In this document: positions 14,331 to 53,497 of the stretch, piece after piece
Layout of the letters: each line of letters opens with the position of its first letter
Numbering within the stretch: position 1 is the first letter of the stretch
Origin: Pedobacter sp. SYSU D00535
GTDB lineage: Bacteria > Bacteroidota > Bacteroidia > Sphingobacteriales > Sphingobacteriaceae
Length of the DNA stretch: 55,686 nt
Assembly: GCF_017355855.1 (NCBI RefSeq)
Contig: NZ_JAFEWD010000017.1
Location: forward strand, 1 to 55,686
Reading direction: 5' to 3'
Translations under genes and position numbers: made by a program
The notes under the pieces: model-generated
The model's input: the letters and a program-made list of their open reading frames with translations, nothing else
The model's database searches: none
Told to the model about the DNA's origin: nothing

Positions 14331-15170
14331 CTACCATTTCGAATCCAGGCCGTATTTGTTTTTGTCAATGAGGAGAAGAGTCGGTGTCCAGGAGCTTACA
14401 CTTTTTTCTTCTGCTGGCTGATACCTGCTATGGCTGAACTTAGACGGTCCGCTGAAATGGCGCGCGTTCAAGTCAACGTGAAATTCGTAGATCTTACGCT
14501 GAATATTTGAGTAAAAATTTTGGTTTAGCGAGGCCAAATAGTCTAATTTGCTGAGGAGCAAGTCGGCAATAGCCTTTGTTTGGGTATCCATCTGATGATA
14601 GAAGTATCCCCAATCCGGTTCCAGGTGCCGGATCTTATTTCGAAGCCGAAGTACTTCAAGCGTGTTAGGCTGAAGGTTGCCGTGATACCTGAAATGATTA
14701 ATGAGCGATCTTTTATGGGCTAGGTTAAGAAATCGACTGTACTCGGCTTTAAGATACGCTACCTTACTGTGATATTCCGAAGTTGTTAAGGAGAAAAGAA
14801 GCATTTCGTTGCGGAAGAACGAAGGATGAATCTCTTTATTCAGAAAATTGAAAATTTCCTGATGGTATCGCACCTGATGGATCTGGGCTTTATCTTCCTC
14901 CAACTTATCCTCCTCAGCGCGTCGCAGGTTTTTCAAAGATGCCGCTTTATATTGCTCAAACTGATCCAAATGAAGGATTTTCGAAAGAGCTTCGATCTCA
15001 TAGTCATGCTTCTCGCGATCTGAAGGAAAATTGTCATTCAGAAAGATGTTCTCTTCCACTTCAAACCGGTGCACGAGTCGTGCTTGGTGCAGTGTCAAAT
15101 TGATAGAGTAGTGAGCCTGGTACCTGTCTATAATAGCGCCAGCAATAGCGTCTAATTCTTCTGGTGTCAT
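14331..15170 (-). CDS. Hypothetical helical protein
   Basis: The 279-residue product has no family I recognise. It is charged, rich in Leu, His, Tyr and Arg, and looks mostly helical, with a likely coiled stretch around residues 75-100 (KNLRRAEEDKLEEDKAQIHQ). There is no signal peptide or membrane segment. The C-terminal 60 residues are less helical and rich in Ser and Tyr. It converges with the RlpA-like gene (nine-base gap). The well-formed length and absence of frameshifts support a real gene; a lineage-specific protein is the best description. Confidence 0.65.
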   Translation of the reverse strand: MTPEELDAIAGAIIDRYQAHYSINLTLHQARLVHRFEVEENIFLNDNFPSDREKHDYEIEALSKILHLDQFEQYKAASLKNLRRAEEDKLEEDKAQIHQVRYHQEIFNFLNKEIHPSFFRNEMLLFSLTTSEYHSKVAYLKAEYSRFLNLAHKRSLINHFRYHGNLQPNTLEVLRLRNKIRHLEPDWGYFYHQMDTQTKAIADLLLSKLDYLASLNQNFYSNIQRKIYEFHVDLNARHFSGPSKFSHSRYQPAEEKSVSSWTPTLLLIDKNKYGLDSKW

Positions 15171-15367
15171 TATTTATCCGGATTTGCTTTCTCTGAATAT
15201 CGTCTTTCGAATATCAGATTTTTTCCAGAGATTTTTGTTCTTCAAAACCCAGCGCCATTTTCTCAATAACTTTAGCCGAAGCTGCTTAAAAGGAGCTACA
15301 GCGCAGTATTGTGAATAACCTATCCCGCTGTTTAAAACTTCCTGTCTGCGACAGAGGTTCCAGCTCT

Positions 15368-15375
15368 TATCTTTG
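15368..15375 (+). promoter_or_regulatory. -7 box of the nrdBA transcript
   Basis: TATCTTTG matches TAnnTTTG exactly. It lies about 30 bases upstream of the cobalamin riboswitch and would start an mRNA with a leader of roughly 265 bases, long enough to hold the aptamer and expression platform. The -33 side is not clear. Confidence 0.65.
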
Positions 15376-15402
15376 TTTCATTAAGTTCTTTAACATAAAT
15401 CG

Positions 15403-15512
15403 TTCAGGTTCATAGTAAGGTTTTACAAGCTATGATTAAAAGGGAACCGTGTGCAAATCACGGGCTGACGTGCAACTGTAAGGTCGATATGACTAAGCCA
15501 GACACCTGCCGA
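15403..15512 (+). ncRNA. Cobalamin riboswitch upstream of nrdBA
   Basis: The conserved aptamer core is readable in order: AAAAGGGAACCG, the stem CCGTG/CACGG closing a TGCAAAT loop, the B12 box GCTGACGTGCAACTGTAA, then AGCCAGACACCTGCC. CAGGT (15405-15409) pairs with ACCTG (15504-15508) to close the core, and CATAG (15411-15415) pairs with CTATG (15430-15434). It sits between a perfect -7 box and nrdB. The following 130 bases (15513-15644) would be the expression platform; I find no classic terminator there, so control of translation or an unusual platform is possible. In known cases cobalamin binding turns off the gene. Confidence 0.92.
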
Positions 15513-15644
15513 AACGATTTTGTCATAACTTTCACGAATAAGGTTTTGACGAAAGCCCGTCTCCGTTTTCAGCGACCCGCTGTCTCCGGACATCCTGTCT
15601 TTTGTCAATTCCTGGTTAGCACTATTAACATTAATTAACTTGTT

Positions 15645-16613
15645 ATGCAACAGGATGAAATATTACTAAAGGAGAACAAGGACCGCTTTGTGATCCTCCC
15701 TATCAACTATCCCGCTATTTGGCAGATGTACAAAAAACATGAAGCCAGCTTTTGGACCGCCGAAGAGATCGATCTTTCTTCAGATCAAAAAGACTGGGAG
15801 AGCCTGAACTCTGGAGAGAAGCATTTTATTTCGCATATCCTCGCTTTTTTTGCGGCCAGCGATGGTATCGTCAATGAAAATCTTGCTGTGAACTTTATGA
15901 GCGAGGTGCAGGTGCCCGAAGCCCGTTGCTTCTATGGCTTCCAAATTATGATGGAGAACATTCACTCTGAAACTTACGCCCTGCTTATTGATACTTACAT
16001 AAAAGACGCTACCGAAAAGGATCGCCTTTTCCATGCCATCGATACGGTTCCCTGTGTGAAGAAAAAAGCGGAATGGGCGCTACGGTGGATCGAGAACGGA
16101 AGCTTTGCGGAGCGCTTAGTGGCTTTTGCAGCGGTGGAGGGGATTTTCTTCAGCGGTAGTTTCTGCTCTATTTTCTGGTTGAAGAAGCGGGGATTAATGC
16201 CGGGATTAACCTTCAGTAATGAGCTGATTTCCCGCGACGAGGGCCTGCATTGTGAGTTTGCCTGTCTGTTGTACAGCATGTTGAAGAATAAGCTTCCGGA
16301 GAGTCAGGTGCATCAGATTATCAGGGACGCCGTAGAAATCGAAAAGGAATTCATCACGGATGCCTTGCCAGTTGCCCTGATCGGGATGAATGCGAAACTA
16401 ATGAGTCAGTACATTGAGTTTGTGGCCGACAGGTGGTTGAGTGAACTGGGCTATTCAAAGATCTACAACGCCACCAATCCTTTTGATTTTATGGAGATGA
16501 TCTCGCTGCAGGGTAAAACGAATTTCTTTGAGAAGCGGGTAGGCGATTATCAGAAAAGCGGAGTACTTTCATCAAAGGATACACAGGCCTTTTCACTGGA
16601 TGAGGATTTCTAG
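15645..16613 (+). CDS. nrdB: Class Ia ribonucleotide reductase, small subunit
   Basis: NrdB holds the diiron-tyrosyl radical cofactor that drives ribonucleotide reduction in NrdA. The 322-residue product has the metal-ligand series D73 ([13 protein letters not shown]), E104 and H107 (MENIHSETY), and the later [10 protein letters not shown] and EGLHCEFA helices. Y111 in SETYALLID is the radical tyrosine. The C-terminus FSLDEDF is the usual acidic, Phe-ended tail that docks on NrdA. It needs oxygen and no cobalamin, which explains control by the cobalamin riboswitch just upstream. nrdA follows 74 bases later, in the unusual order B then A. Confidence 0.97.
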
Positions 16614-16687
16614 TTTCATCCGAACGATTTAATAAACTAAAATATTTGTAACACCAAAAGCCATCCCGTAAAGGGTAGGAGGGGCAT

Positions 16688-19066
16688 ATGTTTGTAATAA
16701 AAAGAGACGGAAGAAGAGAGTCCGTAAAATTTGATAAGATCACCGCACGTATTGAGAAGCTTTGCTATGGCTTAAACCCAGAATTGGTTGATCCAATTGA
16801 TGTGGCCAAAAAGGTAATTGAAGGCTTGTATGATGGAGTAACAACTTCCGAACTAGATAGTCTCGCTGCCGAAACAGCTGCTTCTTTAACCACTAAGCAT
16901 CCGGATTATGCCTTATTGGCCTCGCGAATAGCGGTTTCCAATCTTCATAAAAACACGGTAAAGTCTTTTTCGGAAACGATGAAGAAGCTTTATCTCTACG
17001 TAGATTCAAAAATAAATAAACCGGTTCCGCTGATTGCTGATGATGTATGGGAAGCAATTGAAGCGAATGCTGATATTCTGGATAGCACTATCATCTACGA
17101 CCGTGATTTTGGCTTCGATTACTTTGGGTTCAAAACGCTGGAGAAATCTTACCTGTTGAAAATTGATGGAAAGATCGTCGAGCGTCCCCAACATTTGTTT
17201 ATGCGAGTGGCTGTAGGGATTCATAAACATGATATTGAAAATGTCATTAAAACCTACAACTTGATGAGTGAGCGTTGGTTTACGCACGCGACTCCCACTC
17301 TGTTTAACGCCGGTACTCCGAAACCGCAGATGTCCTCCTGTTTCCTTGTAACCATGCAGGACGACAGCATCGACGGGATTTACGATACCTTGAAGCAAAC
17401 CGCTAAGATTTCACAAAGTGCAGGAGGTATTGGTTTGAGTATCCACAATGTTCGGGCGACAGGCTCTTACATCAGCGGTACTAACGGAACGAGCAACGGC
17501 ATTATTCCGATGCTTCGTGTGTTTAACGATACTGCCCGTTATGTGGATCAGGGCGGAGGCAAGCGCAAAGGCGCTTTTGCCGTGTACCTCGAGCCATGGC
17601 ATGCGGATATTTTTGATTTCCTTGACCTGCGGAAGAATCACGGCAAGGAAGAGCTGCGGGCGCGTGATCTGTTTTACGCACTGTGGGTCTCAGATCTGTT
17701 TATGAAGCGGGTAGAGGCCAATGAAGACTGGAGCTTATTCTGTCCGCACGAAGCTCCGGGATTGCACGAATGCTGGGGAGAAGAGTTTGAAGCACTTTAC
17801 ACGCAGTATGAGGCTGAGGGAAGAGCCCGCAGAACCGTAAAGGCTCAGGACCTATGGTTTGCAGTGTTAGATGCGCAGGTAGAAACGGGTACGCCTTACT
17901 TGCTATATAAGGATGCGGCCAACAGGAAATCCAATCAGCAGAACCTGGGAACTATTAAGAGCTCGAACCTTTGTACGGAAATTATTGAGTACACTTCTGC
18001 CGATGAGGTCGCTGTTTGTAACCTGGCTTCTCTAGCGCTTCCGAGATATATCACAAACGGCGTCTTTGATCATGAGAAACTTTACGAGGTAACCTATCAG
18101 GTGACCTTCAACCTCAACAGAATCATCGATCATAATTACTATCCGATAGATGAGGCTAAAAATTCTAATCTCCGTCACCGTCCTATTGGCTTAGGTGTTC
18201 AAGGGCTAGCCGATACATTTATCCAGCTCCGTCTGCCATTTGAAAGTGAAGAGGCGAAGCAGCTAAACAAGGACATCTTTGAGACGATCTATTTTGCGGC
18301 TATGACAGCTTCTAAAGATCTGGCGATTCAGGAAGGGCCTTATGAAACGTTTAAAGGTTCTCCGTTATCAAAAGGGCAGTTTCAGTTTGACATGTGGGGA
18401 GTGAAGCCGGAAAGTGGTCGCTGGGACTGGGAGAACCTTCGTTTGGATGTGATGAATCACGGGGTAAGAAACTCGCTTCTCGTAGCACCGATGCCTACTG
18501 CTTCTACTTCGCAGATTCTGGGAAATAATGAATGTTTCGAGCCCTACACTTCCAATATTTACACCCGTCGGGTGTTGAGTGGTGAGTTTATCGTGGTCAA
18601 CAAGCATTTGTTGAAAGACTTGGTTTCGCTAGGCTTGTGGAATACCGACATGAAAAACAAGATCATCACGGCTAATGGTTCCATTCAGGATATCCCTGAG
18701 ATTCCAGCAGACATTAAAGAGCTGTATAAAACGGTGTGGGAAATTAAGATGCGTACCATCATTGATATGGCTTCTGATCGGGGCGCATTTATTTGTCAAT
18801 CGCAGTCACTCAACCTGTTCATTAATGCTCCTAATGCGGCAAAACTTACATCTATGCATTTCTATGCCTGGAAAAAGGGATTGAAGACAGGAATGTATTA
18901 CCTGCGGACACAAGCAGCTACACAGGCGGTGAAGTTCACGGTAGAAAATCAGGCCGGAAAAAATATGGAACCTGTTATACCTGAAACGGTCGATGCGGTT
19001 GCAGATGAAATTCCTGCAGGACCGGTTTGCTCTATGGAAGAAGGCTGCGTGACCTGTTCAGCGTAA
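16688..19066 (+). CDS. nrdA: Class Ia ribonucleotide reductase, large subunit
   Basis: NrdA reduces ribonucleoside diphosphates to deoxyribonucleotides. The 792-residue product has an N-terminal ATP-cone (about 1-90, [20 protein letters not shown]) for allosteric activity control. Active-site residues are in place: C218 and C444 form the redox pair, and N427-x-C429-x-E431 in NLCTEI holds the thiyl radical site. The C-terminal CVTC (787-790) plus C781 would receive electrons from thioredoxin. An AGGAGGGG sequence at 16677-16684 gives an unusually strong Shine-Dalgarno match, three bases from the ATG. It shares the riboswitch-controlled transcript with nrdB. Confidence 0.97.
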
Positions 19067-19119: not shown

Positions 19120-19176
19120 CCTAAAATCGTAATTAGATCAACATAAGCAATGGTACTTTTAACATTGTACATCAAC

Positions 19177-19383
19177 ATGGTTAAGCATGAAATCATTCCC
19201 TGCGAGCGCTGCAATGGTCGTATCGAGTGTAAAGCAAATTCATACACTAAATGCCAGTGCAGTAAAGTGTCTTTGAACTTGAACGAGGTGCAGTATGTGA
19301 GCGAAAGGTTTGATGGTTGCTTATGTGCAGCCTGTTTGTTGGCGCTGAAAGAGGAATACCGCCAGATGCTCAAGGAGTGTTGA
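19177..19383 (+). CDS. Cysteine-rich CWC-type small protein
   Basis: The 68-residue protein (from ATG 19177) contains Cys at CERC, ECK, CQC, CLCAAC and the C-terminus, the pattern of the cysteine-rich CWC family. The motifs HEIIPCERCNGRIECK and CQCSKVSLN look like two metal-binding knuckles. The role is unknown. It follows nrdA at 110 bases, with a palindrome between, and may be on the same transcript; a zinc-binding helper for the reductase is conceivable but unsupported. The upstream in-frame TTG or ATG at 19150 gives a less typical start. Confidence 0.75.
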   Translation: MVKHEIIPCERCNGRIECKANSYTKCQCSKVSLNLNEVQYVSERFDGCLCAACLLALKEEYRQMLKEC

Positions 19384-53316: not shown

Positions 53317-53497
53317 TTTTTTAGAAGAACAGCGGAATTGCCTTCTATTGGCCACGGTCCTGCTTTCCGCTATAGTTTTTTGCCACCTTGGCTTCGACCC
53401 CTTCGGGCAAAAAAGCTGCCGCTGCAATCAGGTCTATTAATCCACTTGCTGCTTCTTTAGCGACGTATCCTTATTATTGCATAAAAGATTCTTTTCG
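53317..53497. other. Intergenic gap with A/T-ended inverted repeat
   Basis: TTTTTTGCC (53376-53384) is the reverse complement of 53406-53414. The pairing is A/T rich and no T-run follows the second arm, so it is not a clear terminator. No gene is visible. Confidence 0.4.

Follow-up and report, generated by a model that had tools for sequence, protein, structure and literature searches.

The window, which is the whole 55,686-nt stretch analysed here (contig NZ_JAFEWD010000017.1 of Pedobacter sp. SYSU D00535, Sphingobacteriales), carries a cobalamin (vitamin B12) riboswitch ahead of nrdB and nrdA, the genes of a ribonucleotide reductase (RNR) that, to judge from its sequence, does without B12. 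The arrangement is probably an isozyme switch, in which B12 would lower nrdBA expression and a B12-dependent reductase, NrdJ, would take over. All features of the locus lie on the forward strand:

15368-15375 (+): -7 promoter box TATCTTTG, read from the sequence
15389-15527 (+): cobalamin riboswitch aptamer (RF00174, 69.5 bits, full-length model)
15469-15472 (+): CGUG in loop L5, 5' half of a proposed kissing loop, complementary to 15533-15536
15500-15504 (+): J6/3 segment AGACA; the two other aptamers of the genome have one base more here
15522-15550 (+): P13 hairpin, strands 15522-15532 and 15540-15550, loop CACGAAU; 10 of 11 pairs in the fold
15533-15536 (+): CACG in loop L13, complementary to CGUG of L5; would form the 3' half of the kissing loop
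15542-15555 (+): proposed 5' strand of anti-P13, overlapping the 3' strand of P13; predicted duplex -16.6 kcal/mol
15599-15612 (+): proposed 3' strand of anti-P13, CUUUUGUCAAUUCC, 33-46 nt ahead of the start codon; a similar segment in 17 of 17 leaders
15645-16613 (+): nrdB, class I RNR beta subunit, close to eukaryotic R2 (PF00268; mouse R2)
16688-19066 (+): nrdA, class I RNR alpha subunit with ATP cone (TIGR02506 above cut-off; PF02867, PF00317, PF03477)

NrdB matches PF00268 at 399.9 bits and mouse R2 at 510 bits, and the tyrosine of its HSETY motif aligns with mouse R2 position 177, which we take to be the radical tyrosine; in NCBIfam it matches 17 models, none of them at the model's own cut-off. 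NrdA matches TIGR02506 (NrdE_NrdA) at 729.9 bits, with a cut-off of 341, as well as the three Pfam domains listed. Judged by these matches, nrdB-nrdA is a class I RNR, the B12-independent isozyme, downstream of the aptamer; a sequence-only reading of the window had likewise seen here a class I pair with a tyrosyl-type beta subunit, and PF02867, PF00268 and the aligned tyrosine agree with it. The nrdB start is fixed at the ATG at 15645 because an in-frame TAA (15636-15638) stands nine bases ahead of it, which leaves a leader of 117 nt from the end of the aptamer to the gene. The upstream neighbour, an open reading frame at 14331-15170, lies on the opposite strand, so the first gene open to control by the aptamer is nrdB.

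The aptamer match, found in a scan of the whole window (E 3.9e-15), covers model positions 1-189 and lies above the Rfam gathering score of 31.5 bits. The sequence-only reading had recognised the aptamer correctly and given it too short an extent, 15403-15512. It had also named the -7 promoter box, and this holds up in relatives: TAnnTTTG, the consensus of the -7 box, stands 16-24 nt ahead of the aptamer in 11 of 14 other nrdB riboswitches and recurs with one mismatch in the other three.

The gene content of the 4.89 Mb assembly, in which the window is contig C7, gives this aptamer its setting. RF00174 matches three sites genome-wide, and the two outside the window (107.9 and 94.8 bits) precede a gene for a BtuB-like TonB receptor (its top NCBIfam match, the B12 receptor model, falls short of the cut-off, 138.3 vs 599.7) and metE, which encodes a B12-free isozyme. 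RNR large subunits number two in the genome, namely NrdA in the window and a single NrdJ on contig C17 (1099 aa; PF08471; TIGR02504 at 590.7 bits, cut-off 399.95); no NrdJ is encoded inside the window, and no NrdD was found in the genome. The sequence-only reading had noted the absence of NrdJ from the window and foreseen its presence elsewhere, and the suggested search for nrdJ and B12 uptake genes returned NrdJ, the B12 receptor-like gene and a PduO-type cobalamin adenosyltransferase. MetH is encoded as well. For cobM/cbiF, the sole gene of de novo B12 synthesis sought, no match passed the cut-off (best 122.6 vs 259.65 bits). The three switches thus sit on probable B12 uptake and on two B12-free isozymes for which the genome also has the B12-dependent counterparts, NrdJ and MetH.

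The switch also tracks NrdJ among relatives. Sampling at the level of the order yielded 121 genomes, every one in the window's family and hereafter called the family sample; 29 of them encode NrdJ (PF08471), and NrdB is of the window's type (at least 620 bits) in 95, only distant in 23 and missing in three. The switch counts rest on window-type NrdB, with the upstream regions of the 23 distant NrdB left out. The 800 bp upstream of nrdB were taken for 93 of the 95, the remaining two being the window's own genome and G110, which was dropped because its nrdB begins at base 40 of its contig. An Rfam cobalamin riboswitch precedes nrdB in 14 of 25 NrdJ-bearing genomes and in none of 68 without NrdJ (15 of 26 when the window is counted). 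Within g4, the genus richest in both kinds, the figures are 9 of 18 and 0 of 19, and an exact test stratified by genus gives p 1.3e-4. A named set points the same way: among the 50 of its 80 NrdB loci that were checked for NrdJ, the reductase accompanies 16 of the 17 loci that have a switch and 14 of the 33 that have none. Of these 17 switches, 13 were identified by Rfam (14 loci scanned) and four by pattern and profile; the 33 switchless loci were called by pattern and profile, with L018 also scanned by Rfam (no match) and L045, a weak profile match, omitted from the tree. The two samples overlap, for example in L024, L011 and L078, which are apparently in G079, G097 and G041.

Kinship was taken into account with two nrdBA trees, a smaller one of 60 of the 93 loci plus the window and a larger one that adds 49 named loci to the same rows. 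In the smaller tree 2-5 of 7 independent pairs agree with the coupling of switch and NrdJ and none oppose it; in the larger, on average 3.1 or 4.5 of 12 pairs agree and 0.0 or 0.1 oppose. Correlated evolution of switch and NrdJ is suggested, and NrdJ looks necessary but not sufficient for an nrdB switch. Two further observations were made in the sample. Three genomes (G004, G050, G115) have NrdJ and no NrdB match, so that of these two reductases they may possess NrdJ alone. At L188 (G055, C1:2637200-2641400) the strand that carries nrdB has another cobalamin riboswitch about 2.6 kb farther downstream, just beyond the expected end of nrdA.

The leader suggests how the aptamer could act. The comparison covers 17 sequences with CUUUCACG after the aptamer, 15 from the family sample together with L010 and L033, while the 15 other named switch loci were left out. 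In all 17, an 11-bp P13 hairpin follows the aptamer directly and a possible anti-P13 is available, a rival helix in which the 3' strand of P13 would pair with the downstream segment (15599-15612 in the window). The CGUG/CACG complementarity of L5 and L13 recurs in 10 of the 15 family members, the other five showing one extra L5 base by eye. The two loops vary as a unit: they read CGCG/CGCG in the genome's own metE switch, UCCC/GGGA in that of the btuB-like gene, and UGCG/CGCA or CGGG/CCCG in 5 of the 15 other named nrdB switches, the other 10 of which were not parsed. From this complementarity an L5-L13 kissing loop is proposed. A start-codon hairpin at 15639-15654, with the AUG in its loop, was rejected as L13 because relatives place P13 right after the aptamer, and the loop UGCAAAU was rejected as L5, since it is L4 and L5 is the next small loop.

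Covariation was assessed on 16 leaders, L097 being omitted as identical to L113 in the aligned region. For P13, 94.9% of cells are paired and two-sided changes occur at 2 of 11 pairs, a level reached by 48 of 500 shuffles. For anti-P13, 90.6% are paired and two-sided changes occur at 5 of 12 pairs, which none of 500 shuffles attains; the best slid versions reach 3 pairs. Folding energies support anti-P13 only in part. As a bare duplex it is predicted to exceed P13 in strength in all 17 leaders, and when the RNA ends with the partner segment, anti-P13 forms without P13 in 8 of 17 models, that of the window included.

The best explanation of these data, to which we give a probability of about 0.8, is a B12-repressed isozyme switch. 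Imported cobalamin would be adenosylated and at high level would bind the aptamer. In the bound state L5 would kiss L13 and P13 would form, withholding its 3' strand from anti-P13, and expression of the oxygen-dependent, B12-free NrdBA would drop, leaving the supply of deoxynucleotides to the B12-dependent NrdJ. With little B12 in the cell, anti-P13 would form and nrdBA would be expressed. A choice between P13 and anti-P13 timed by transcription would fit. The sequence-only reading had already proposed such a switch, and NrdJ elsewhere in the genome and the restriction of the switch to NrdJ-bearing genomes of the family sample support it.

Several results weigh against this explanation. The best partner of the P13 3' strand stands out from shuffled leaders (at most 10 of 300 as good) in just 7 of 17 leaders, the window among them with 5 of 300. 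When the model extends 40 nt into nrdB, all 17 leaders are more stable in the P13 state, and barring P13 yields anti-P13 in only 5 of 17; the probability given above is no higher because anti-P13 is not favoured once the nrdB start is included. Start-codon access in the P13 and anti-P13 states differs little, if any, more than in shuffled controls. Among relatives, 11 of the 25 NrdJ-bearing genomes have no Rfam match before nrdB, and L040, a metagenome-assembled genome of 2.6 Mb, has a switch while NrdJ was not found in it. The sign test controlled for kinship falls short of significance (median p 0.125-0.25, range 0.016-1), and a strong statistical claim for the coupling was dropped: the raw and genus-stratified tests are strong, the tree pairs are not significant.

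The output step may be translation or termination, each being possible. No terminator-like site was found on the plus strand between aptamer and nrdB, as the sequence-only reading had remarked, and an intrinsic terminator was rejected on that ground and because the conserved CUUUUGUC has just four U. An upstream reading frame in the leader was also rejected: some leaders have TTG frames, and by eye the conserved motif lies in differing frames. A purely translational form of the same B12 repression, in which a leader segment freed in the P13 state pairs with the first nrdB codons and hides the start, is a serious candidate, if somewhat short of even odds. It accords with the lack of a plus-strand terminator and with the modelled accessibility of the window's AUG, 0.07 in the P13 state vs 0.85 when anti-P13 is enforced; across the 17 leaders, the P13 state makes codons 2-7 less accessible in 13 and more accessible in two. 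The AUG itself, however, is less accessible in eight and more accessible in six, and shuffling the downstream part of the leaders reproduces the trend in two of the three regions compared: 14 of 40 shuffles are as low for the AUG and 20 of 40 for -20 to -2. The third region, codons 2-7, goes beyond the control, with 2 of 40 shuffles as low. Occlusion as a mechanism shared by the leaders was not retained: the corrected test leans towards it, and the shuffled control removes most of the lean. A version of the test that set enforced P13 against leaders in which P13 was simply barred, and gave lower AUG access in 3 of 17, had been set aside as unfair, because barring P13 gives anti-P13 in so few leaders.

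Activation of nrdBA in the presence of B12 is improbable. An activating corrinoid riboswitch has been reported (PMC10653944), and neither a terminator nor an occluded start site fixes the sign of the response in the nrdB leader. The same riboswitch family, however, sits on metE and the btuB-like gene of this genome, the switch was found in none of the 68 genomes that have nrdBA and lack NrdJ, and in Bacteroides thetaiotaomicron the riboswitch-controlled genes described are repressed by B12 (PMC8941943). Slightly less probable still is a decaying relic without present function, which would suit the lower score of the window's aptamer beside the genome's other two and the case of a decayed relative (L102, in G056) that keeps P13 and has no Rfam match despite NrdJ, but not the full-length model match, the L5/L13 complementarity, the 10 of 11 pairs of P13 and the anti-P13 partner of the window itself.

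The switch seems to have decayed in some relatives where NrdJ is absent, with pieces of it left behind. In g4, four genomes of a single clade that lack NrdJ (L120, L155, L159, L169) retain GGGCTAATGTGCAACTAAAA, which agrees with the aptamer core in 16 of 20 letters; among 680 control shuffles one reached 15 letters and none 16. In genus g3, many leaders of NrdJ-less genomes show a degraded P13-like segment and its partner about 119 nt ahead of nrdB, a pattern that is a by-eye reading because by score only 3 of 68 NrdJ-less loci exceed the 99.5% null line. In 46 aligned g3 sequences conservation of this stretch is poor (0.62-0.70), much as in other parts of the leader (0.69-0.73), and lower than in the promoter block (0.91) or at the coding start (0.80-0.90). 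The aptamer of L102 looks degraded and its P13 is clear. A second NrdJ-bearing locus without an Rfam match, L110 (G090), has a weak P13-like segment at about -138 to nrdB and a clear CUUUUGU partner, and is perhaps a strongly diverged or decaying switch.

Most nrdB aptamers of the family sample also share a peculiarity in J6/3, a segment that bears on the ligand selectivity of cobalamin riboswitches. It is 5 nt long in 13 of the 15 (AGACA or AGAUA), and 6 nt long in the btuB-like and metE switches of the same genome and in 20 of 20 other cobalamin riboswitches from 20 sampled genomes, a comparison drawn from the high-scoring part of the matches listed, which may favour the usual 6-nt form. Of the named nrdB switches outside the leader set, 14 are readable and three of these have the short form (L052, L055, L076). 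Taken jointly, these results for Sphingobacteriales and their kin allow a tentative reading that we judge rather less probable than not. The nrdBA switch and NrdJ would form one evolutionary unit, the switch being retained only while NrdJ is present, because a sole RNR repressed by B12 would stop DNA synthesis when B12 is present; after loss of NrdJ the aptamer would decay and leave fossils that can still be recognised, and the nrdB aptamers, with J6/3 one base shorter, would be a subtype of their own, whose preference among the forms of cobalamin may have shifted.

The principle is already published. In Streptomyces coelicolor an adenosylcobalamin-responsive riboswitch precedes the class Ia operon nrdABS, with NrdJ in the genome (Borovok et al. 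2006, cited in PMC4991794). The present locus shares the B12 riboswitch ahead of a class I RNR and the additional NrdJ, but differs in its Bacteroidota host, in the order nrdB-nrdA and in an NrdB close to eukaryotic R2, and it is known from sequence alone. Desulfovibrio vulgaris and Desulfuromonas have B12-elements before nrdDG and NrdJ elsewhere (PMC545781), so that a B12-free RNR stands under a B12 element with the same proposed logic, although the target there is NrdDG and here NrdBA. In the metE corrinoid riboswitch of Priestia megaterium, mutations show mutually exclusive pairings of P13 whose rival is an antiterminator (PMC10653944). On the model proposed here, an L5-L13 kissing loop that stabilises P13, and a P13 3' strand with a rival partner downstream, are common to both, whereas no terminator was found in the present leader and its rival helix rests on covariation. 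The env8 cobalamin riboswitch likewise has an L5-L13 kissing loop, which is proposed here, but its L13 holds the ribosome binding site (PMC10907184), while L13 of the nrdB leader lies about 110 nt ahead of the start codon. No report of B12 control of nrdBA in Sphingobacteriales or other Bacteroidota was found among the open-licence papers searched; a study of Parapedobacter, a related genus, mentions RNR genes and, in the passages concerned with them, no riboswitch (PMC7500135).

What is added to nrdABS and nrdDG is the anatomy of such a switch in Bacteroidota, together with its apparent decay in relatives without NrdJ. B12-controlled swapping of RNRs would thereby extend to Bacteroidota, where the enzyme targeted is of class I and close to its eukaryotic counterpart. 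The model predicts that NrdJ becomes essential on addition of B12, and the related genomes with intact, decayed and absent switches offer a natural series on the death of a riboswitch after loss of its partner gene.

Three observations concern the surroundings of the locus. The sequence TGTTTAAAACT at 15329-15339, about 30-40 nt ahead of the -7 box, is a possible regulator site; an element TGT(1-2 N)AAAACT occurs within 500 bp upstream of nrdB at 14 of 14 switch loci, 7 of 11 NrdJ-bearing switchless loci and 20 of 68 NrdJ-less loci; some extra matches lie inside P13, yet one precedes the promoter at 14 of 14 switch loci. Directly 3' of nrdA, a Cys-rich CWC protein of 77 aa (PF14375) is encoded at 19150-19383 (+). 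A Flavo-1 RNA (RF01705) lies farther along the window at 53352-53439 (-), with 55.4 bits against a cut-off of 42.

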